This document shows, piece after piece, positions 3,665 to 40,342 of a DNA stretch of 42,083 nt. The notes under the pieces were generated by a model. The model was not told the DNA's origin. It worked only from the letters and a program-made list of their open reading frames with translations, and searched no databases. The stretch comes from Bacteroidales bacterium (lineage in GTDB: Bacteria; Bacteroidota; Bacteroidia; Bacteroidales; WCHB1-69), in NCBI GenBank assembly GCA_024682995.1, contig JAIKYR010000129.1, positions 1 to 42,083 of the forward strand, given 5' to 3'. Made by a program: the position numbers and the translations under genes. The first letter of the stretch is position 1. Each line of letters opens with the position of its first letter.

Positions 3665-3674
3665 CCGCCGTTTT

Positions 3675-3746
3675 GAAAGGGGTGCCTTCCGAGGCTGAGA
3701 TCAGACCCGTTGAACCTGATGCGGATAATGCCGCCGTAGGGAGATA
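3675..3746 (+). promoter_or_regulatory. TPP (thiamin pyrophosphate) riboswitch
   Basis: The conserved THI-box segments appear in order: GGGGTGCC, GGCTGAGA, ACCCGTTGAACCTGAT and GCGGATAATGCCG, then CGTAGGGAG. It lies between a TATTTTTG promoter and the TonB receptor gene, 62 nt before that gene's first ATG. TPP-bound RNA normally lowers expression of thiamin synthesis or uptake genes. Here the only downstream gene is the receptor, which points to thiamin or precursor uptake. I could not identify the expression platform; the short spacing suggests control of translation start. Confidence 0.95.
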
Positions 3747-3808
3747 AACAGAGTCTTCTTTTCCCTCTTTCAGTATTTGTTTAATTATAAAATAAAACTG
3801 TTAGAGTT

Positions 3809-6208
3809 ATGATTAAAAGTTTAGAGTTTAGAGTTGAGCGTTTCAAGTACAACAATCAACAGCTAACGGCTAAAGGCCAACAGCCCACGGCCCGTTTTTT
3901 CCGTTTGTTTTCTGCCATGATAGCCATGCTGATTCCGTCAGTGTTGTTCGCGCAGCTCCCCGACACTGTGCAGCGCGGCGAGGTGGAAGAAGTGACCATC
4001 CAGTTCACCAAGCCCACGGTGCAGACTTCGGCCAACGTCACCACCATGTCCATGCCGCAGATACGCGCCCAGCAGGGCAACGGAAGCGTCAACAACCTGT
4101 TGGAACTGATGCCCTCGGTGGTCACCACCTCCGAGTCGGGTAACGGTCTGGGTGCCACCTACCTGTTCATCCGCGGCATTGACCAGACCCGTATCAACAC
4201 CACTCTCAACGGCGTGACTATCAACAATGCCGAATCACAGGGCTCTTGGTTGGTGAATTTGCCCGACATGGGCGCTTTTATCGAAAATGTGAGCGTGCAG
4301 AGCGGGGCCAACACCTCCGACGGCAGCACCTCCTACGGTGCCCGCGTCGATTTCGTGACGCGCGAAATACCCACCAAACCCTTTGCCGAGGTGCGCAGCT
4401 CCTACGGCTCGTTCAACACCTTCCACAATATGGTGAACGCCGGCACCGGCCTCATCGGCAAGCGCTTTTCCATGCTGGCCTCCTTCTCCGACATCCGCAG
4501 CGACGGTTACATCGACTACTCCGGCGTGCGCCTCAACTCCGGTTTCTTGACCGCCCAATATGATTTGTACAATTTTAAAAAGAATAAAGACTACGGAAAA
4601 CTGAAATTCCATCTCCTTTTCGGCACCGAGCACACCGGCCTTGCCTGGAACGGCGTGTCCTATGATATGTTAGAGACCAACCGCACATACAACTCCTGCG
4701 GCGAATATTACGATGACAACGGAGATTACCATTACTATGAGAATTCCAAAGACCATTACACCCAGACATTCTATCAATTGGAATACGTCAAAGATTGGAT
4801 TCGCCAGGAGGGACGCCAACGCCACAGCCTGCAGGTGATGCCCTATCTGACACGCGGCATCGGTTATTACGAACAGTATAAAGACGATAAGAAGGTGAAG
4901 AAATACGGTTTGGAAGGCATCATCCATATGGTGGGTCATGAACTGGACAGCGCCACGTACACAGTTACCACTCTTTATGACACTTCAAAGAAAGCCGACT
5001 TTGTCACACAGAAATACTTGGACAACTATTTTTACGGTGTTCATGCGCAATATACGGGCACGCAGGTGTTCAAGGAGCATAGCGACCAAGGTCTGCGCTG
5101 GGTGGCTGGTGCGGATGTCAGCAACTACAACGGCAAGCACTATGGCTACATCGTGTGGGTGCAACCCGACCGCGTGGTGGATTGTCCGGCCATGTACAAA
5201 TGGTACGAGGGCACCGGCAACAAGCTGCAGGCCAAGCTCTTTGGCAGTCTGCGCTATTGGTACAAGAACTTCAGCGTGACGGGCGAGTTGCAGTACCGTC
5301 GGGTGAATTACGTCATTGACGGTGTCAACGACGAACTGACCCCCATCCCGCAGGAGTATCACTGGAACTTTATCAACCCGAAAATCGCGTTGCACTATTA
5401 TATAGACAAGAACCCATTGAAACACAGTTTCGACCTCTCCTTTGCCACCGCCAACCGCGAGGCCACACGCAACGATCTCGTTGGCGCCCCTGACAACCGA
5501 AAGCCTATGCCGGAAACGCTCTACGACTTGGAGTTCAGCTATATGATGCACAATGCCAAGTTCTTCTTCAACACCACGTTGTATGGTATGTATTATAAGG
5601 ACCAGCTGGTGCGAACCGGCGAGTTGGACCAGACCGGCGACCCACTCATGACCAACGTCGATAAGAGCTATCGCGCTGGCATTGAGCTTTCAGCGGCCTA
5701 CCGTCCGGTGCGCTTCTTCACCTGGCACATCAACGGCGGCTTCAGCCTCAACCGCATCATCGATTACGTGCATTATGTGGATCACTATTCGGGAGAAAAT
5801 TGGGACTGGGACGGTCAAACCGAACAACACCTGGGCAACACCCCGATCTCCTTCTCACCGAGCGTAGTGCTGGGCAATGACTTCACCTTCACCCCGCTCA
5901 AAGACTTCAACATTTCCCTGATTACCAAGTTTGTCAGCAAGCAATATCTCGACAATTCCGGTGACGACACCTATTGTTTGAGGCCGTACTCCTACAGCAA
6001 CCTGCGTCTTTCCTACACTTTCCATTTCAAATGCTTGAAGGATCTGGAACTTTTCTTCCATATCAACAATCTCTTCAATGCCAAATACGAAAGCAACGCC
6101 CAGATATATACCTCTTATTATGAGGATGAACCGGACAAGTACTACAGTACCGGTTATTTCCCGCAGGCGGGCATCAATTTCTTAGGCGGCGTGAGATTGA
6201 AATTCTAG
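3809..6208 (+). CDS. TonB-dependent outer membrane receptor, probably for thiamin
   Basis: A 799-residue TonB-dependent receptor. The signal peptide core is residues 30-49 (FFRLFSAMIAMLIPSVLFAQ). The plug starts near residue 55 and has 'LLELMPSVV', 'YLFIRGID' and 'TTLNGVTINNAE'. The barrel follows and ends in Phe ('GGVRLKF'), as outer membrane proteins do. No carboxypeptidase-like N-terminal domain and no SusD partner is present. Control by a TPP riboswitch makes it an OMP-thi type receptor importing thiamin or a precursor. No pnuT-like transporter or thiamin synthesis gene is nearby. The first 29 residues are encoded by an intergenic-type repeat (see findings). Starting at Met37 would leave a signal peptide with no positive charge, so the long start is preferred but uncertain. 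Confidence 0.9.
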   Translation: MIKSLEFRVERFKYNNQQLTAKGQQPTARFFRLFSAMIAMLIPSVLFAQLPDTVQRGEVEEVTIQFTKPTVQTSANVTTMSMPQIRAQQGNGSVNNLLELMPSVVTTSESGNGLGATYLFIRGIDQTRINTTLNGVTINNAESQGSWLVNLPDMGAFIENVSVQSGANTSDGSTSYGARVDFVTREIPTKPFAEVRSSYGSFNTFHNMVNAGTGLIGKRFSMLASFSDIRSDGYIDYSGVRLNSGFLTAQYDLYNFKKNKDYGKLKFHLLFGTEHTGLAWNGVSYDMLETNRTYNSCGEYYDDNGDYHYYENSKDHYTQTFYQLEYVKDWIRQEGRQRHSLQVMPYLTRGIGYYEQYKDDKKVKKYGLEGIIHMVGHELDSATYTVTTLYDTSKKADFVTQKYLDNYFYGVHAQYTGTQVFKEHSDQGLRWVAGADVSNYNGKHYGYIVWVQPDRVVDCPAMYKWYEGTGNKLQAKLFGSLRYWYKNFSVTGELQYRRVNYVIDGVNDELTPIPQEYHWNFINPKIALHYYIDKNPLKHSFDLSFATANREATRNDLVGAPDNRKPMPETLYDLEFSYMMHNAKFFFNTTLYGMYYKDQLVRTGELDQTGDPLMTNVDKSYRAGIELSAAYRPVRFFTWHINGGFSLNRIIDYVHYVDHYSGENWDWDGQTEQHLGNTPISFSPSVVLGNDFTFTPLKDFNISLITKFVSKQYLDNSGDDTYCLRPYSYSNLRLSYTFHFKCLKDLELFFHINNLFNAKYESNAQIYTSYYEDEPDKYYSTGYFPQAGINFLGGVRLKF
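3812..3897 (+). repeat. Composite intergenic-type repeat fused to the receptor's 5' end
   Basis: Tandem GTTTAGAG units are followed by a unit rich in CAACAGCTAACGGC / GGCCAACAGCC. The same two units occur in the same order on the minus strand at 35911-36033, and the first unit recurs at 32046-32069. Here the repeat is read as codons 2-29 of the TonB receptor. Confidence 0.65.
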
Positions 6209-6214
6209 TTTCTG

Positions 6215-6814
6215 TTATCGTTTCAGCCATTCCGGATGGGCATACGGTTCCTTGTCCTCCAGATTGAACCAGCCCTTGTGTTTGCCACGCATCCCGTAAT
6301 AGTATTTCTCAATCTCCTCCATATCCTTCTCGTAGTCGCCCGTGGGGTAGAATATTTGGCCGATGCCGGCGGTTCGGCTGCGAAAGTCGATGTGACTGAT
6401 ACATATTGGCACGCCCGCCTTGACGGCAATCTGATAGAAGCCGCGCTTCCATTTAGTCACCAGCTGGCGGGTTCCCTCGGGACAGATGATGAACGCAATC
6501 TCGTCACGGCTTTTTATCAAATCCACGGCGAAATCCGCGAAATGCAGTGCGTGCTGGCGGTCCACCGGCACACAACCGATTTTGAGGAGAAGAGGTTTCA
6601 ATGGGAATATGAAGAACTCCTTTTTCATGGCCATTGCCATCTTCAGCCGCAGATGACGAATCACCCTCAACCCGATGAAGAAATCGGCAACGGCGGTGTG
6701 TGGGGCCATAATGACCACGCACTTTTTCAGGTCAGGATTGCTGTGGATTTCCTCCGGGGTAAGACCCGATACCCGAAAACGATGGAATTTCAAGAAGAAG
6801 GTATGTACTGACAT
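6215..6814 (-). CDS. PlsC-type glycerolipid acyltransferase
   Basis: A 199-residue protein with the acyltransferase motif HxxxxD at His39-Asp44 ('APHTAVADF') and the second block 'CPEGTR' near residue 133. These are the catalytic and phosphate-binding motifs of the 1-acyl-glycerol-3-phosphate acyltransferase (PlsC/LPLAT) superfamily. It lacks the strong N-terminal membrane helix of classic PlsC and is short, so it may act on another lipid acceptor at the inner membrane surface. It follows the LD-carboxypeptidase gene by 6 nt and is likely in the same transcript. It converges with the TonB receptor (6 nt between stop codons), with no clear terminator between them. Confidence 0.82.
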   Translation of the reverse strand: MSVHTFFLKFHRFRVSGLTPEEIHSNPDLKKCVVIMAPHTAVADFFIGLRVIRHLRLKMAMAMKKEFFIFPLKPLLLKIGCVPVDRQHALHFADFAVDLIKSRDEIAFIICPEGTRQLVTKWKRGFYQIAVKAGVPICISHIDFRSRTAGIGQIFYPTGDYEKDMEEIEKYYYGMRGKHKGWFNLEDKEPYAHPEWLKR

Positions 6815-6820
6815 AATGCT

Positions 6821-7723
6821 TTAATTTTCAATGATGATGGAATGGTCTTCGCACAGGCATTTCATTGGGCATCCCATGCGGATGGCCAGGTTGTCGGCCT
6901 CGTGACCGGCGGGGAATCCGAAGACGACGGGAAAGTCATACCGTGCAGCATGTTCGGCCACAATCTCTTCGGCGGTTTTGCCGTATGGGATAGTGTTGTC
7001 GTGCATGTCGCTGAGATGACCCACCAGCAACCCAGCCAGCCGACGCAGTTTGCCGGCCCGCTCCAAGCTGGTCATCATCCGGTCGATATGGTACAGGTAT
7101 TCATCCAAATCTTCGATGAAGAGCACCTTACCATCGGTGTTCACATCCGAGGGGGAGGCGAGTAAGGAGTATAGCATTGACAGGTTGCCGCCGGTGAGTG
7201 TGCCCTCGAAGTTGCCGGGACGGCTTAGCGGGTGTTGTGGCAGCTCATAGTGCAGGGATTCGCCCCGTAGGGCGGCTATCAGCGAATGGTTTGCGGCATT
7301 GCCAAGCTCTATCTCATGCACATTGATGGGCATAGTGGCATGGAGGGTGGCGATGTTGAAATTCTGCTGGATGTGGGAATGGAAGACTGTCACGTCGCTG
7401 TAGCCACAAATCCATTTGGGATGGGCGCGGAAAGCGGTGAAGTCCAGCCGGTCAATAATGCGGGCGGAGCCGTAGCCGCCGCGGGCGCACCACACGGCCT
7501 TGATGTCGGGGTTGTCAAGCAACTCCTGAATGTAGCCTGCACGCACAGCCTCGTCACCAGCAAACTGGTGACATTCGGCAAAGAGGCGCTCGTCATAAAA
7601 AACGTTAAAACCCGCCTGGTGGAGCAAGTCCACGGCGGGCGTAATCTCCGCAGGGGATATTTTCCGCGCCGGAGCCGCAATGGCCACCGTGTCGCCGTTC
7701 CGCAAATAGTCAGGGATAATCAT
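6821..7723 (-). CDS. LD-carboxypeptidase, peptidase family S66
   Basis: A 300-residue protein. '[10 protein letters not shown]' near the start, '[15 protein letters not shown]' and 'ICGYSDVT' (nucleophile Ser in GYSD), followed by '[16 protein letters not shown]' (Glu) and a C-terminal His region, are the hallmarks of family S66. These enzymes remove the terminal D-alanine from murein tetrapeptides during peptidoglycan recycling in the cytoplasm; some members act on microcin-type peptides instead. Length is typical. The ATG overlaps the stop of the upstream dehydrogenase (ATGA at 7720-7723), indicating translational coupling, and the acyltransferase follows 6 nt later. Confidence 0.9.
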
Positions 7724-8574
7724 AATGTTATGCCGTTTTTCCGCAAAATCTCCTGTGTCATCTCGCGCAACAGTGTCCTCTCTTGTTTGTTGTTATAAAA
7801 ACGCTTTTTAGGCTTTTTAACATTGCATTTTTTGAAATAGGCTCCAGTCACCCCTTCAAATTCCGGGTTCAGCGCGGCTGCCAGCATGGTGGCTGCACCC
7901 TCTTCAGGTGTGTTGATGAGCGGACGGAAAATCCAGTCGCACAGCTTATCCACCACGATGTTGCCCTGCCGGATGATGCCAGTACTCACAATGTCAGGGT
8001 CTGCCACGTTGATGCAGATGCCGCGCTCCCTCCAGGCTTCGGCAGCATCCAGCGTGAAATAGTAGAGTGCGCGTTTGGAGTTGCCGTACGTGGAGAAACG
8101 GTTGAATTTGTGATCGTCCGTAGGTTCGAAGTAATCCTTCCGGATCTTGCCCACGACATACGCTATGGACACCATACTCACAATGCGCGTACCTCGACCC
8201 ATGATCGGTAGCAGGGCGTTGGTTAACGTGTAGTGACCCAAGTAGTTGACTGCAGTGGTGTATTCAATGCCGTTCACACTGTTGCGGGCCCGATGGCACA
8301 ATACACCGGCATTGTTCAAAAGAATCTGCAAAGAGGGAAACTCCTTCTTCACCTCATCGGCGAAGCGGATGATATCCTGAAGATTGCCGAGGTCCACCTG
8401 CTTCAAAAAGAGATTTGCTCCGGTCTCCTTGCGGATCGCCTCATAGGTGGGACGTGCGATTTCCGTGTCGTAGCAGGCCATGATGACATCATAACCGGAT
8501 TTCGCCAATGTACGGGTGTGTATTGTTCCCATACCTCCGTCGGCACCCGTTACTAAAGCTGTTCCTTTACTCAT
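7720..8574 (-). CDS. Short-chain dehydrogenase/reductase (SDR), retinol-dehydrogenase-like
   Basis: A 284-residue protein from the chosen ATG at 8574. It has the Rossmann NAD(P) motif TGADGGMG near the N-terminus, NNAG in the middle, and the catalytic Ser with Tyr-x3-Lys in '[10 protein letters not shown]'. It resembles the extended retinol/protochlorophyllide-reductase-like SDR group. The C-terminus is basic ('KKPKKRF'). An upstream in-frame ATG at 8634 would add 20 residues before the Rossmann start with no conserved sequence, so '[10 protein letters not shown]' is taken as the start. A TATATTTG promoter is at 8655-8662. It is the first gene of a transcript with the LD-carboxypeptidase and acyltransferase. 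Substrate unknown. Confidence 0.85.
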
Positions 8575-32100: not shown

Positions 32101-32595
32101 TTATTGGTTCTTGTATTTCACCACTTCATCGGAGAAGAACTCTATCTGTACCCCGGCAGCCTTGAACATCTCCTCTGATTCGGCGCCGGCGTGGTATTTG
32201 TTGGCGCACACCACCCGCTTGATGCCGCAGTTGATGATGAGCATAGCGCACACGCGGCAGGGGGTCATACGGCAGTAGAGGGTGGCTCCATCCAGCGAGA
32301 TGCCTAACTTGGCGGCCTGGCAGATGGCGTTCTGTTCGGCATGGACAGTGCGTACGCAGTGCTGGGTCACGGTGCCGTCCTCATGGACTGTCTGCTTGAG
32401 CTGGTGGCCCACCTCGTCGCAATGGGGCAGCCCCTTGGGTGAGCCCACATAGCCGGTGACGAGGATCTGGCGGTCGCGCACCACTACGCAGCCGCTGCGC
32501 CCGCGGTCGCACGTGGCCCGCTTGCTAACCGTATCGGCAATCTCCATGAAATATTCATCCCATGAGGGACGTATGTGTTTGGTTTCTTCCATCAT
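32101..32595 (-). CDS. dCMP deaminase family protein
   Basis: A 164-residue zinc-dependent deaminase. The zinc and catalytic motifs are 'VHAEQNAI' (HAE) and 'MTPCRVCAMLI' (PCxxC). 'RATCDRGRSGCVVVRD' and 'YVGSPKGLPHCDEVGH' match the ComE-type deoxycytidylate deaminases. It converts dCMP to dUMP for thymidylate synthesis in the cytoplasm. The first two codons are both ATG and either may be used. A TATTTTTG promoter lies at 32617-32624, and the gene diverges from the cobalamin riboswitch transcript. Confidence 0.92.
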   Translation of the reverse strand: MMEETKHIRPSWDEYFMEIADTVSKRATCDRGRSGCVVVRDRQILVTGYVGSPKGLPHCDEVGHQLKQTVHEDGTVTQHCVRTVHAEQNAICQAAKLGISLDGATLYCRMTPCRVCAMLIINCGIKRVVCANKYHAGAESEEMFKAAGVQIEFFSDEVVKYKNQ

Positions 32596-32759: not shown

Positions 32760-32767
32760 TATTTTTG
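32760..32767 (+). promoter_or_regulatory. Promoter -7 element for the cobalamin riboswitch transcript
   Basis: TATTTTTG immediately before the riboswitch; it fixes the transcript start near 32773. Confidence 0.65.
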
Positions 32768-32773
32768 CCGCCG

Positions 32774-32935
32774 TTAAGTGGTGAGGGGTTTTATATTTTA
32801 AAATCCTGAGAGGGAAACAGGTGCGAATCCTGTACAGTACCCGCTGCTGTAAGTTCCGCGAATGGGAACGGCAAGATGTCACTGTCGAAAGATGGGAAGA
32901 CGCTGTTCTTGGAACGAGTCAGAAGACCTGCCGCT
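32774..32935 (+). promoter_or_regulatory. Cobalamin (adenosylcobalamin-type) riboswitch
   Basis: The conserved segments are in order: GGGAAACAGGTGCGAATCC, then ACAGTACCCGCTGCTGTAA, then GATGTCACTGTC, GGGAAGACGC, and the B12-box-like AGTCAGAAGACCTGCC near the end. The region between the TATTTTTG promoter and the ATG at 33148 contains no gene, and about 210 nt follow the aptamer. The expression platform is not resolved; a GAGAGCTCTC palindrome lies at about 32974-32987. Cobalamin-bound RNA normally turns off uptake or synthesis genes. The only gene after it is the tandem-domain T9SS cargo. Confidence 0.95.
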
Positions 32936-33147
32936 TATACGTTGTTGTCGCTTCGGGAGGTAGGCGGATACAAAGAGAGCTCTCTTTCGTGCTCTTCATC
33001 CCATATTAACCGAAGCATTTTGTTGAACCTGAATGCCGAGGATTATGCATTGGTGGTTTTTATTGGAAAACAAGAATTCGCATCCGGAATGCTCTTTCGG
33101 CAGTTTTTTCATGCACATTTTTCAATAATTCACTAAATAAAAACACT
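32936..33147 (+). other. Long 5' leader between cobalamin aptamer and coding start
   Basis: About 210 nt with no convincing gene; the small open frames through the aptamer have no family features. It is likely to hold the expression platform of the riboswitch. Confidence 0.5.
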
Positions 33148-34458
33148 ATGAGAAATTTTCTAACTATTTTGGGGTTGTTCTGTATGATAAACCTGACCTT
33201 TGCCCAGCAGACAGTTATTCGTAACGGGCATGATGTTCAAACATGCTCACCGCGCACCGTCAGTCACCACAATGTCCTGGCTCCCGCACCCACCGTTGAC
33301 GCCTCCATCTCCGCCAATGATATCACATGTTGGGTGGGGACGGGGAACACGGAAGTGATTTTCGTTGGCAACTGGTGCAGCCCGGATGTGGCGTTGGCCT
33401 GGGGTGTGCGCTTCCAGGGTGACAGTATCACGGTGAAGTCGGTGATGGACACCATCCTGGCTTATGATAACCGCTTTGGCTATTCCGGCATGTACAGCAC
33501 CATTGATGAGGTTACCTATCAGGACGGAACCTACAACCTCACCATGTCGCAACCCACTACAGGGTATATCATGTATAATGTCAACGGGACACTTGCCGAT
33601 TGGGGATTTACCCTCATGTATGTGCATCAAGGCGACCTCATCAAGGTGGGGAACACCGAATGTGCGATCTCTACGGGTGACCCGAACGACTGGACTACTT
33701 GGGGTTACGCATGGGAAACCATTATCACCCCTGTGGCCCCCATTGCGCTTCCCGCACCTCCTGATGCCACCATCAGTTTCAATGAGATTCTCTACTGGGT
33801 GGGCGAAGGCTCGAATGAGGCTGTAATGGCCGTCAACTGGGCCGATACCGCCTTGGCTTGGGGCTACCGCTGGAACGGCACGGCCACCGTGGCCGACATG
33901 ATGGCCGGCATCGCCGCCGCCGACCCACGCTTCAGCTATACAGTCAGCGGCTTTCTTGATGATATCAACTATCTTGATTCCGCCGCCGGCATGACAACCC
34001 CGTTAGGCATCACCCCTGGCAACTTCTGGGAAAGCTACAACAACGGCTTCATGGACATGGGCCTGACGCAGACCCTCAACAACGGCGATTTCGAGAAGTG
34101 GGCTGACCCTGCCGCCGGTATCATCATCGATAGCACCTACGATGCCACTTACGACTACTGGTGGTACACCCGCGTCTATCCGATGACCATCACCCCCGTC
34201 ACCGTACCCGACACCACCCATTCGGGCATCAGCAGCCGCGAAACAGCACGTGTCGTCGCTTATCCGAGCCCCTGCACCGGCACGCTTCATGTTGTTGGTG
34301 AAAACGCTAACCGTGTGGAACTCTATGGCGTGGATGGCAGACTGTTGGAAGTGGTTGACAACCATGGGAACCGGATTACCATCAACATGCATAATTATCC
34401 TGCCGGACTATATTTGCTGAAAGCAGGAAACAGCATTCAGAAAATCTTGAAAAAATAA
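33148..34458 (+). CDS. Cobalamin-riboswitch-controlled T9SS cargo with two tandem domains
   Basis: A 436-residue secreted protein. The signal peptide is residues 1-20 (ends FAQ). Residues 51-196 and 206-350 are two copies of one domain: each begins 'DA.IS', has 'WVG.G..E' and 'ALAWG.R', then 'DPRF' or 'DNRF', and closes with 'ITPV'. Copy 1 has Cys61, Cys77 and Cys172, which copy 2 lacks. Residues 366-436 are a T9SS type A sorting domain ('VVAYPSPCTGTLHV', 'YPAGLYLLKAG'). The 'WVG.G...ALAWGYRW' domain recalls one in secreted proteins of other phyla, but its function is not known to me. Riboswitch control suggests corrinoid capture or processing at the cell surface. No btuB or btuFCD gene is adjacent. 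Confidence 0.85.
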   Translation: MRNFLTILGLFCMINLTFAQQTVIRNGHDVQTCSPRTVSHHNVLAPAPTVDASISANDITCWVGTGNTEVIFVGNWCSPDVALAWGVRFQGDSITVKSVMDTILAYDNRFGYSGMYSTIDEVTYQDGTYNLTMSQPTTGYIMYNVNGTLADWGFTLMYVHQGDLIKVGNTECAISTGDPNDWTTWGYAWETIITPVAPIALPAPPDATISFNEILYWVGEGSNEAVMAVNWADTALAWGYRWNGTATVADMMAGIAAADPRFSYTVSGFLDDINYLDSAAGMTTPLGITPGNFWESYNNGFMDMGLTQTLNNGDFEKWADPAAGIIIDSTYDATYDYWWYTRVYPMTITPVTVPDTTHSGISSRETARVVAYPSPCTGTLHVVGENANRVELYGVDGRLLEVVDNHGNRITINMHNYPAGLYLLKAGNSIQKILKK

Positions 34459-36235: not shown

Positions 36236-36574
36236 ATGAAAAAGATAATAGCATACAAGAACCATTATAAGGAATTTATATCTAAACTATCTGATAATGA
36301 GCGTGCTAAAATCAGGAGAGCTTTGCTGCTTTTTGAGACAGAAGATAAAATACCGCAACATTACATCCATTATATTCGCGATGGATTGTATGAATTTCGC
36401 GTAAATTATGGGAACAAAGAATTCAGGATATTTTTTATCTATGACGGAGAGCAGATTGTGGTGTTGTTTAACTGTTTTACGAAAAAATCACAGAAAGTAC
36501 CTAAAAGGGAAATAGAAAAAGCAATAAAATTAAAGGATGAGTATAAAAATGAAAAAAAACGAGGAAATATATGA
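36236..36574 (+). CDS. higB: RelE/HigB-type toxin
   Basis: A 112-residue basic protein. 'KNHYKEFISKLSDNERAKI' and 'YIHYIRDGLYEFRVNYGNKEFRIFFIYDGEQIVVLFNCFTKKSQKVPKREIEKA' match the RelE/ParE superfamily of HigB type ('phage-derived Gp49-like'). Such toxins cut mRNA on the ribosome. The C-terminus is Lys-rich. The toxin gene precedes the antitoxin, as in higBA, and the frames overlap. Codon use is AT-rich (many AAA, ATA, TTA) compared with its neighbours, pointing to recent gain. The transcript may be leaderless. Confidence 0.88.
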   Translation: MKKIIAYKNHYKEFISKLSDNERAKIRRALLLFETEDKIPQHYIHYIRDGLYEFRVNYGNKEFRIFFIYDGEQIVVLFNCFTKKSQKVPKREIEKAIKLKDEYKNEKKRGNI

Positions 36575-37617: not shown

Positions 37618-37697
37618 CCCGTTTCATTGGCACGCATGCCGAATACGATTAGATTGCAGACATTCGAGATTTTGAGACAGTGATACATCCTACAGAT

Positions 37698-38744
37698 ATG
37701 CATGGCGTTCCCTTGCGGCGTGGCCTGCGCGGATTCGCGCTGCTGCTGGCGCTGTGCCTGACTGTGTCCATGCTGCGTGCGCAGGATTATCACTTCTCGC
37801 AATTCTACAGTCAGCCGGTCACGTTGAACCCCTCCCTGACGGGTGCTTTCGACGGTGTTTTCCGGGCTGCTGTCACGGAGCGCACCCAGTGGCTGTCGGT
37901 TACCAAGCCCTTCCTCACCATTGGTGCGGGCATAGACGGGGCCATCATAAAGGACAACCGGCGGCAGCAGATGCTGGCCCTCGGGGCGGTGTTCACCGCT
38001 GACAAGGCTGGCGATTTGCACTACACATCTTTGCAGGCACTCGCATCGGTGTCCTACATCAAATATGTCGGACGGCGCAGTCGCCACAAAATCGGCATCG
38101 GAGCGTACGCCGGCATGATCAACAACTCGTACGACATCCTTTGGGCCATGTGGGGTTCCCAGTACCGGGATGGACAATACGACCCCAACATGCCCGGCGG
38201 GGAGAACATCCCGATGAGTAACCAGTTCCTATTCGACTGCGGGGCGGGTCTTTTCTGGAGTTATACGCCCAACAAGACCAACACCTTCCAATTGGGGGCC
38301 GCCGCCGCCCACCTCAACCGTCCGTTCGACGATTTCGGAACTCTCTCCTCCCGTTTGCCTATACGCTACACGGCCCACTTCCTGTCGCGCATCAGTCTTA
38401 CCCGGGAGGTCTCGATAGAACCTCTTCTGTACGGCTCTTGGCAGCGGAATTTCAGCGAATACCTCTTCGGGGCCAACGTCGAGTATTTCCAGCGTCAGAA
38501 CAGCTACAAGACGCTGTTTTCCTTTGGCGGCGGACTCTTTTACCGATGGAACGACGCCATCGTGGTGGATTTCTTCTTCGACTGGCAGAACCTTCGCTTG
38601 GGTGCCAGCTACGATCTCAATGTGTCACGATTCATCCGCGCCACCAAGATGCGCGGTGGTTTTGAGGTGACGTTGTCCTATATTTTCCGGAAAAAAAGTA
38701 TCACCCGATTAGGCAAGGAGCCTTGTCCCTTTGATGTTATGTGA
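37698..38744 (+). CDS. porP: T9SS outer membrane protein PorP/SprF
   Basis: A 348-residue outer membrane beta-barrel. The signal peptide (residues 1 to about 27) ends 'SMLRAQ'. 'DYHFSQFYSQPVTLNPSLTG' is the invariant PorP/SprF start; 'YIKYVGRRSRHKIGIGAYAGM' and 'FDCGAGLFWSY' are barrel blocks. PorP/SprF paralogs help secrete or attach T9SS cargo at the surface, often with a PorE-like partner. The ATG at 37698 is used; a GTG 18 nt upstream is in frame. The PD40-OmpA gene starts 2 nt after its stop. Many Bacteroidota carry several PorP copies, so this need not be the core secretion one. Confidence 0.9.
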   Translation: MHGVPLRRGLRGFALLLALCLTVSMLRAQDYHFSQFYSQPVTLNPSLTGAFDGVFRAAVTERTQWLSVTKPFLTIGAGIDGAIIKDNRRQQMLALGAVFTADKAGDLHYTSLQALASVSYIKYVGRRSRHKIGIGAYAGMINNSYDILWAMWGSQYRDGQYDPNMPGGENIPMSNQFLFDCGAGLFWSYTPNKTNTFQLGAAAAHLNRPFDDFGTLSSRLPIRYTAHFLSRISLTREVSIEPLLYGSWQRNFSEYLFGANVEYFQRQNSYKTLFSFGGGLFYRWNDAIVVDFFFDWQNLRLGASYDLNVSRFIRATKMRGGFEVTLSYIFRKKSITRLGKEPCPFDVM

Positions 38745-38746
38745 TT

Positions 38747-40342
38747 ATGAGAAAGGCTCTTGCGTTCATATTACTCATCATCACCTGCGGGTTTGTGCAG
38801 GCTCAGGTGCGGCTGTCGGACCGCCAGCGGGACGAGCAGATCCGGTTCATCCGGAATGACACGCTCCCCGTGACGGTAAACGCCCTTCCTTTCAGTATAA
38901 ACTCCCGTTTCTCGGAGTTCTCGCCCGTCCTGTTGCCGGATTCCACTTTCCTGTTCACCTCCATGCGTGCCGACCGCGAGGAGGATGCCGACCGCTACTT
39001 TGAGACCAGCTGGTATTGCAACATCTACCGTTCCCAGCTGCTCTCCGATGGAGACTATGCGCCGGCCGTGGCCTTGCCTTCCAGCATCAACAACCGGCGT
39101 ACCTTTAACAGCAACTTCTGCTGGAATGCCGCCCAGAACGAGCTAATCTACTCGCGCTGTCTGCGCGACAACACAAATGAGCTGCGGTGCTCGTTATGGC
39201 GCACTTGCCGCAACAACCGGGGATGGAGCTCCCCTCAGAAGCTGCCCTCTGCCATCAACGCCGAATCCTCCACCAACATGCAACCCTGCCTCGTGACTAT
39301 GCACGACTTCGAAGTGCTTTACTTTGTTTCCAACCGGAAAAGCGGATTCGGTGGTCTGGATATCTGGTATTCCATCCGCAAAAACGGCAAATTCGATGTC
39401 CCCATCAATGCGGGTCCGATCATCAACACCGAAGGCAATGAGATTACCCCCTTCTATGATCCGGGCAAGAAAATCCTGTATTTCAGCTCTGATGAACATC
39501 TCGGCATCGGCGATTACGACATCTTCTACGCGGAAGGGGCCTTGAGCCAATGGGGTGAAGTTGCCAACATGGGTGTTCCGTACAATTCACCCTACAATGA
39601 CTTCTACTTCCAACTGCTTCCTGATGGGGAGAGTGGCTATTTCTCCTCCAACCGTCCGCACGACGACCTTCAACTGGAAGACACCTGCTGCAACGACATC
39701 TTCCATTTCCAAAAACACTATCCGGAAGAAACTCCAGCCGAATCCAAGGACACGGTTTCTATGCATGAAAAAATCGCCTCCGTGCTGCCCATCACTCTTT
39801 ATTTCCAAAATGACCAGCCCGACCCCAAGACCCTTTCCGACACGACCAAGACAGACTATCCGGCCCTCTATAACCGTTATGTGGCCGATATGCAGCATCA
39901 TATAGCGCAATCCATCAGTGGTTTGGATGATGATAGCATGCACATTGTCCGGCAGATGATGATTCGATTCATGCGTGATTCGGTCGCTGCCGGTTATGGC
40001 CGTCTCCTGGCCTTCACCCGTTATCTGAAGGAGGCCCTGACGGCGGGCGACTCCGTGGGCATCCTCATCAGCGGGTACGCCTCGCCCCTGCACAATCCTG
40101 TTTATAACCGGCATCTCTCCGCCCGCCGAATTGTCAGCCTGGTCAACTATCTCCGCACGGCGGAAGGGGGCTTCTTCCGGCCTTATCTGGACGGCAGCCG
40201 GGCGGGACTCACCCTCCGCACCGACCCGCAGGGAGCCGTGGGTCCGGCATTCACCACCGATGACACCCGCGAGACCGTTTACGGCATCCAGGCGGCCAAG
40301 GAGAGGAAAATCGTTGTCTCTATCCTCTATGACAAACCCTGA
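38747..40342 (+). CDS. PD40 beta-propeller/OmpA-like partner of PorP (PorE-like)
   Basis: A 531-residue exported protein (signal peptide about residues 1-20). Residues 45-300 are PD40-type propeller repeats, for example 'LYFVSNRKSGFGGLDIWYS' and 'ILYFSSDEHLGIGDYDIFYA'. After 'LPITLYFQNDQPDP' there is a long helical insert, then an OmpA-like peptidoglycan-binding domain ('ISGYASPLHNPVYNRHLSARRI') ending 'AKERKIVVSIL'. This is the PorE-like layout without an N-terminal TPR part. It should link the outer membrane PorP to peptidoglycan. It lies 2 nt after porP, so the two are translated together. Start is ATG 38747. Confidence 0.85.
   Translation: MRKALAFILLIITCGFVQAQVRLSDRQRDEQIRFIRNDTLPVTVNALPFSINSRFSEFSPVLLPDSTFLFTSMRADREEDADRYFETSWYCNIYRSQLLSDGDYAPAVALPSSINNRRTFNSNFCWNAAQNELIYSRCLRDNTNELRCSLWRTCRNNRGWSSPQKLPSAINAESSTNMQPCLVTMHDFEVLYFVSNRKSGFGGLDIWYSIRKNGKFDVPINAGPIINTEGNEITPFYDPGKKILYFSSDEHLGIGDYDIFYAEGALSQWGEVANMGVPYNSPYNDFYFQLLPDGESGYFSSNRPHDDLQLEDTCCNDIFHFQKHYPEETPAESKDTVSMHEKIASVLPITLYFQNDQPDPKTLSDTTKTDYPALYNRYVADMQHHIAQSISGLDDDSMHIVRQMMIRFMRDSVAAGYGRLLAFTRYLKEALTAGDSVGILISGYASPLHNPVYNRHLSARRIVSLVNYLRTAEGGFFRPYLDGSRAGLTLRTDPQGAVGPAFTTDDTRETVYGIQAAKERKIVVSILYDKP

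Follow-up and report, generated by a model that had tools for sequence, protein, structure and literature searches.

Evidence for a cobalamin riboswitch-controlled, T9SS-exported tandem transcobalamin-like protein with a probable role in corrinoid capture in a Bacteroidales bacterium

In a 42,083-nucleotide contig of a Bacteroidales bacterium (GenBank assembly GCA_024682995.1, contig JAIKYR010000129.1; the whole stretch is called the window here), a gene at 33148-34458 encodes a 436-aa protein that follows a cobalamin (vitamin B12) riboswitch and carries two copies of a domain resembling the beta domain of animal transcobalamins, together with a C-terminal sorting domain of the type IX secretion system (T9SS). 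The product is probably an exported corrinoid-capture protein working with BtuB and BtuG, with ligand binding predicted from fold and gene context. The riboswitch, the export signals and the transcobalamin-like fold suggest that B12 is caught outside the cell with a tool related to that of the animal carriers. A preliminary description, made from the sequence alone, had proposed a corrinoid-binding or corrinoid-releasing protein placed on or outside the cell by T9SS rather than by lipid anchoring. The corrinoid-related exported protein was supported by transcobalamin-like structure models, riboswitch linkage, gene rows with btuB and btuG and the presence of SprA in the genome, whereas replacement of the lipid anchor was not.

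The layout of the product agreed with the preliminary description of a single gene encoding a signal peptide, a duplicated domain and a T9SS sorting domain (all features of this locus are on the plus strand). The probable Sec signal peptide at 33148-33207 (MRNFLTILGLFCMINLTFAQ) was read by eye, is accompanied by a hydrophobic peak in the hydropathy plot and lacks a cysteine at the likely cleavage site. The transcobalamin beta-domain-like copies at 33295-33735 and 33760-34212 (approximately residues 50-198 and 204-358) shared 45 of 138 aligned residues (33%) and scored 149.4 and 195.5 bits, respectively, with profile A3, which was built from an alignment of 140 copies (139 of 143 copies plus the window) that includes copy 1. 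The sorting domain at 34261-34455 (residues 372-436) exceeded the curated cut-offs of both PF18962 (Por_Secre_tail; 31.4 bits, cut-off 27) and TIGR04183 (26.7 bits, cut-off 23), which classes the protein as T9SS type A cargo. The genome holding the window gene (G000; 181 contigs, 88% complete) was counted as having T9SS machinery on a SprA match of 2457 bits and a PorP/SprF gene in the window. At 37680-40342, this PorP/SprF gene is found with a gene that has matches below cut-off to PorE/OmpA-like families, and both are T9SS-related. In the Pfam scan, the protein had no match to the beta-propeller/DUF5074 (BtuG) families or to DUF4465 (BtuJ).

The domain, left unassigned in the preliminary description, is on its predicted structure distantly related to the transcobalamin-like beta-grasp clade, with likeness at the fold level, and not a member of PF14478 (DUF4430). 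AlphaFold models had a predicted local distance difference test score (pLDDT) of 94.2 and a predicted template-modelling score (pTM) of 0.69 for the tandem, and a pLDDT of 95.0 and a pTM of 0.90 for copy 1. When the single copy was searched against the PDB with Foldseek, ranks 1-18 were all transcobalamin, intrinsic factor, haptocorrin or 3u7z (probability 0.99-1.00, E 0.0041-0.066), and the probability dropped to 0.11 at rank 19; the first 17 matches of the tandem came from the same set. The human transcobalamin beta domain with cyanocobalamin (5np4) aligned to the single-copy model with a TMt of 0.70, and identity with transcobalamin chains in the fold alignments was 13-15%. In the model of copy 1, a helix (49-59) is followed directly by a beta hairpin (strands 63-68 and 71-78), the feature that defines the transcobalamin-like clade of the soluble-ligand-binding beta-grasp (SLBB) superfamily (PMC1796856), so that the domain shows this feature on the model. 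All 140 aligned copies share an invariant WxGxG motif in the N-terminal part. Transcobalamins carry DUF4430 as their C-terminal domain (PMC4350170). In alignment A1 (24 hand-picked domain copies, two from the window and 22 from relatives), 10 copies matched DUF4430 at E<=0.1 (best 2.2e-10), and 10 of the 140 copies in A3 did so at E<=0.001, where no other Pfam family was matched. An hhalign comparison with one DUF4430 protein gave only 59-70%, and a PDB sequence search with one DUF4430-rich copy returned antibody matches only. A further alignment, A2, combined the window with 124 pairs; 154 pairs had been reduced to 127 non-redundant ones.

The aptamer, described earlier as well formed, lies at 32762-32949 and matched the Rfam cobalamin riboswitch family RF00174 over its full length (1-189) with 98.3 bits (E 1.7e-23), well above the gathering score of 31.5 bits that defines membership for a full-length match. 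Its end is 198 nt from the start codon, rather than the roughly 210 nt first given. It is followed at 32950-33032 by an element with complementary arms, GCTTCGG and CCGAAGC, that was strongly conserved across 18 aligned leaders (the window and 17 close relatives). The arms were paired in the minimum free energy fold of the leader, whose energy was weakly better than that of shuffled sequences (z -1.87; 10 of 200 as good), and this element is probably the expression platform. As to the promoter of the preliminary description, the letters at 32760-32767, TATTTTTG, form a Bacteroidota-type -7 box, and this box was identical in three of four aligned relatives, with TACTTTTG in the fourth; a sigma-70 scan found four candidates against a shuffle mean of 2.8, which is about chance. 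A terminator scan run alongside gave no useful outcome.

The linkage between the domain and the riboswitch was then examined in 79 related loci (numbered with L), taken from the best 80 of 256 confirmed stretches. The nearest relatives were metagenome-assembled genomes of Bacteroidales or Bacteroidetes (one named bacterium P3), many from the rumen and other ungulate gut sites. Rfam models detected 78 cobalamin riboswitches, with at least one in 71 of the 79 loci, and in 69 loci a same-strand riboswitch lay within 3 kb upstream of a domain open reading frame (ORF), although one of these (L098) scored only 36.6 bits. Six of the ten misses were cut by a contig end (L051, L055, L083, L102, L105, and L112), one (L115) was due solely to the chosen start codon, and in another (L116) the riboswitch was 3.2 kb upstream, with btuB and btuG in between. 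When ORFs beginning less than 400 nt from the upstream end of a locus were excluded, a riboswitch lay within 600 nt upstream of 61 of 76 domain ORFs but of only 12 of 423 other ORFs; the Fisher p of 2e-51 is nominal because the loci are related and were picked by similarity, and since all the riboswitches detected were on the plus strand, the minus-strand ORFs among the 423 could only be misses. The 12 other ORFs were nine BtuG-like genes, the L116 BtuB gene and two CoA-transferase-like genes, assigned by eye except for those tested. In L061 (9850-10040) and L065 (9716-9906), a second cobalamin riboswitch precedes a 434-aa CoA-transferase-like gene, also called by eye. A SAM-II riboswitch match (59.2 bits) was seen at 7873-7932 of the Bacteroidales locus L060, and in L048 (487-1920, genome G028) a relative's copy of the gene is broken by one stop codon inside the match.

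Profile A3 was also run on 296 independently sampled genomes from the phylum. The domain was found in six of them, G000 included, and four of the five others (G146, G353, G357, and G411) had a same-strand riboswitch 0.1-5.8 kb upstream; in the fifth (G391), none was found on the contig, which ends shortly upstream of the domain gene. The preliminary description had named a sub-threshold riboswitch score and a lack of relatives near B12 genes or riboswitches as grounds for refutation, and neither applied: the aptamer scored above its gathering score, and 69 of 79 loci had an upstream riboswitch, with btuB or btuG rows in some. It is very improbable that the domain has a different ligand or a role independent of B12, with the riboswitch marking B12 shortage only: different ligands have been suggested for other members of the wider SLBB superfamily (PMC1796856), but riboswitch linkage was seen in near and distant families, and btuB or btuG linkage in several.

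In some relatives, gene rows link the probable capture protein to the BtuBG uptake system. In L049, L050, L057, and L064, the riboswitch is followed in a row by a BtuG-like lipoprotein gene and the domain gene, and the L050 BtuG matched 8blw_B at 5.6e-85. BtuG was checked against the PDB for L050 and L116, and the remaining BtuG calls and all lipoprotein signals were made by eye. L116 has the riboswitch, BtuB (8blw_A, 1.6e-113), BtuG (8ptf, 2.8e-32) and the domain protein. In G411 (L165), the riboswitch is followed by BtuB (5.6e-129), a DUF5074 protein, a lipoprotein that matches PKD_3 below threshold and a 746-aa domain protein (4982-7222), which combines the first part of one transcobalamin-like domain with a domain of the DUF5074 propeller family and a T9SS tail; DUF5074 is a family also matched by BtuG-like proteins. 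In G146 (L169), the order is riboswitch, TonB receptor (sharing 47% identity with the L165 BtuB), BtuG (1.6e-39), a PKD protein and a 262-aa domain protein (6073-6861) with a lipoprotein-type signal read by eye. With both T9SS-tailed and lipoprotein-signal carriers, the domain therefore occurs with either export route.

These rows, together with G000 itself, do not agree with the earlier proposal that T9SS is used in place of lipid anchoring. A BtuG-like lipoprotein gene stands beside the T9SS gene in L049, L050, L057, L064, and L116, the G146 domain is on a protein with a lipoprotein signal, and G000 has a BtuG-like gene on contig C172 that is 57% identical to the L050 BtuG over residues 7-362. 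Replacement of lipoproteins by T9SS was likewise rejected as the reason for the lone gene in the window, as relatives have both. G000 has three cobalamin riboswitches, in the window and on contigs C3 and C111. The C3 riboswitch precedes a 634-aa paralogue (L034:1186-3090) that likewise has the domain twice and carries a sorting domain. The C111 riboswitch (L035:2722-2906) precedes nrdD (anaerobic ribonucleotide reductase) and its activase, called by eye. A BtuB homologue is encoded at C3:8699-10768 (31% identity to the L116 BtuB over 685 aa). The 831-aa TonB receptor before the C172 BtuG-like gene was considered as BtuB and rejected as not BtuB-like (E 0.96), and the BtuB family model stayed far below cut-off for both G000 receptors that it matched. 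Three B12-binding-domain matches above cut-off were also found in G000.

The leader offers a possible account of why the gene stands alone. A 31-codon stretch (MPRIMHWW...) at 33033-33128, beginning 84 nt past the aptamer, resembles the start of btuG. Where btuG follows a riboswitch in seven relatives (L050, L054, L056, L057, L058, L070, and L062 at its first riboswitch), it begins with MPRIM, MPRFM or MLRIM 84-85 nt past the aptamer, whereas the btuG-like frame of the window stops after 31 codons. Such a stretch was seen behind 19 of the 79 riboswitches examined, the window counted. In L049 and L075, where btuG is present, the stretch lies in another frame, and btuG would begin a few codons downstream; in L047, L048, and L052, it continues in frame into the frame of the domain gene. 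L062 carries both forms, with a riboswitch, btuG, an opposite-strand gene, a second riboswitch and the domain gene in order. The stretch is probably a leftover of a btuG start and possibly an upstream ORF, and it may be kept since translation from there belongs to the switch. We read it as the copied or trimmed head of a riboswitch-btuG unit that now drives the domain gene, as judged from sequence comparison, and such a leftover would explain the lone gene.

The neighbours of the gene are a deaminase gene on the opposite strand upstream (32101-32595) and, downstream, rarA (PF12002, 235 bits), as identified earlier. No transporter gene was found among the window neighbours, as the preliminary description had stated, although this looks secondary given the btuG-start leftover and the BtuB homologue on C3. 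The missing adjoining transporter also bears on a decoy or hoarding role like that of haptocorrin, in which corrinoids would be bound outside chiefly to keep them from competitors or to retain analogues, and not to feed BtuBG. T9SS products can be released, which would suit such a role. However, riboswitch-led rows shared by the domain gene and btuB or btuG in some relatives speak against it, as does the expectation that the riboswitch would express the gene when the producing cell runs low on B12, and we consider this role improbable.

For a capture protein feeding BtuBG, the following course can be proposed. At low cellular cobamide, the riboswitch would permit expression of the gene. Sec would carry the product across the inner membrane and T9SS across the outer one, after which it may stay on the surface or be released. 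Its two beta-grasp domains would capture corrinoids, which would be delivered to the BtuBG uptake complex, presumably by hand-over to BtuG. A more specific version, which we put forward only tentatively and regard as doubtful, is that the protein is a bacterial equivalent of haptocorrin or intrinsic factor, that the two tandem transcobalamin beta domains close like a clam on one corrinoid in place of the animal alpha/beta pair, and that T9SS-exported arrays of two to five domains form a B12-repressed trap feeding BtuBG.

Many related loci also contained a second, highly conserved region, termed module M (approximately 221 aa; for example, L116:6798-7475 and L034:2173-2841). It was found in 67 of the 79 loci (in two only in part), fused to the domains in 54 ORFs and domain-free in 14, with a mean column identity of 72% over 11 aligned copies; its best Pfam match was not significant (E 0.019), and a sequence search of the PDB returned nothing. 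A same-strand riboswitch lay within 5 kb of module M in eight of its ten best-matching other genomes (not in G164 or G170), and two of the eight scored weakly (37.3 and 34.9 bits). The window gene had no match to module M, and the C3 paralogue has it. A rival reading is that the domain protein is a B12-regulated surface protein that does not itself bind corrinoid and aids uptake structurally, for example as a scaffold for BtuG or vesicles; module M could then be the real binder. A scaffold role has been proposed for BtuL of B. theta, a B12-operon protein without cobalamin binding (PMC12751083), and the arrays of two to five copies in most relatives would fit it. This explanation is nevertheless unlikely, as the single-domain fold match picks corrinoid-binding beta domains out of the beta-grasp folds.

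Several results weigh against a transcobalamin-like corrinoid-capture protein. The window protein scored 14.8 bits with DUF4430, below the cut-off of 23.8, and whole-protein scans of four related domain proteins put two above it (L026, 54.0; L034, 25.2) and two below (L033, 21.0; L009, 11.7). PDB sequence searches with the window protein and the domain profile found no relative. No Foldseek match of the tandem or the single copy reached E 0.001, so the fold case rests on the consistency of the match list. In the tandem search, a beta-grasp chain of molybdopterin synthase (6jbz_B) was matched with probability 0.75 (E 0.53); mere general beta-grasp likeness was considered less likely, as the best other single-copy matches listed, among them a ubiquitin-like domain (0.33) and ThiS (0.30), did not exceed a probability of 0.33. 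Animal carriers hold B12 sandwiched between alpha and beta domains (PMC11107200), and no alpha domain was found by Pfam in the window protein, whose 436 aa are made up by the signal peptide, the two copies and the sorting domain. BtuK2 of B. theta, like BtuL, is in a B12 operon, yet cobalamin binding was not seen for either (PMC12751083). L096 and L100 have the domain and no riboswitch in the DNA examined. In the far matches L165, L168, and L172, the rescored profile covers approximately the first 60 of 150 positions, which leaves the second half of the domain unsupported in these three. No riboswitch was detected before the G000 btuB (C3) or btuG (C172), which is weak evidence given an 88% complete assembly in 181 contigs and the C172 row near a contig end.

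If the capture role holds, the locus connects a B12-binding domain of animal carriers with an export system that Bacteroidota of the rumen and elsewhere regulate by B12, and T9SS is added to the routes by which these bacteria may compete for cobamides. The family can now be named and tested; the Pfam DUF4430 model mostly misses it, finding two of the 296 phylum genomes (G000 one of them) against six with profile A3. Elsewhere in the window, a thiamin pyrophosphate (TPP) riboswitch (3668-3760, 68.6 bits) directly precedes a TonB-dependent receptor gene (3809-6208), which is probably a thiamin-related outer-membrane uptake gene, and a Gp49-like (DUF891) small protein at 36236-36574 is possibly the toxin of a toxin-antitoxin pair.

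Among known systems, the beta domain of transcobalamin, intrinsic factor and haptocorrin was the best fold match, including the cobalamin-bound 5np4. The window protein differs from these carriers in lacking an alpha domain and in its tandem copies, WxGxG motif, T9SS tail and riboswitch control. The same fold is found in 3u7z (Ruminococcus gnavus RUMGNA_00854; TMt 0.68-0.69), a small one-domain protein that the PDB entry describes as putatively metal-binding and that we take to be a DUF4430 member. The isolated transcobalamin beta domain has been crystallised with cyanocobalamin (PMC5599065), and the beta domain is said to bind before the alpha domain in animal carriers (PMC11107200). Transcobalamin-like domains of bacteria were described in 2007 from low-GC Gram-positives and planctomycetes, and also from some archaea; the ligands predicted at the time included B12 (PMC1796856). 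The Bacteroides surface B12-binding lipoproteins BtuG, BtuH, BtuJ and BtuK (PMC8941943, PMC12751083, PMC10404256, and PMC13398666) are likewise riboswitch-controlled accessory surface proteins, and some relatives of the window gene adjoin btuG; however, these have a lipid anchor in place of the T9SS sorting domain, and none was among the 50 fold matches listed. The domain may conceivably be identical with B. theta BtuK.

IPR026444 is presumably the T9SS sorting domain. It is carried by 229 of 824 DUF4465 proteins examined (PMC12751083), and T9SS sorting of B12 binders has therefore already been noted at the annotation level. DUF4465 proteins are also B12-binding exoproteins, but with a beta-jellyroll fold (PMC13398666). 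No report of a riboswitch, T9SS and a transcobalamin-like domain in combination was found in the open-licence literature, mostly titles and abstract openings. Bacterial transcobalamin-like domains and Bacteroidota surface B12 binders are thus both known, and it is their combination in this locus that appears to be new.
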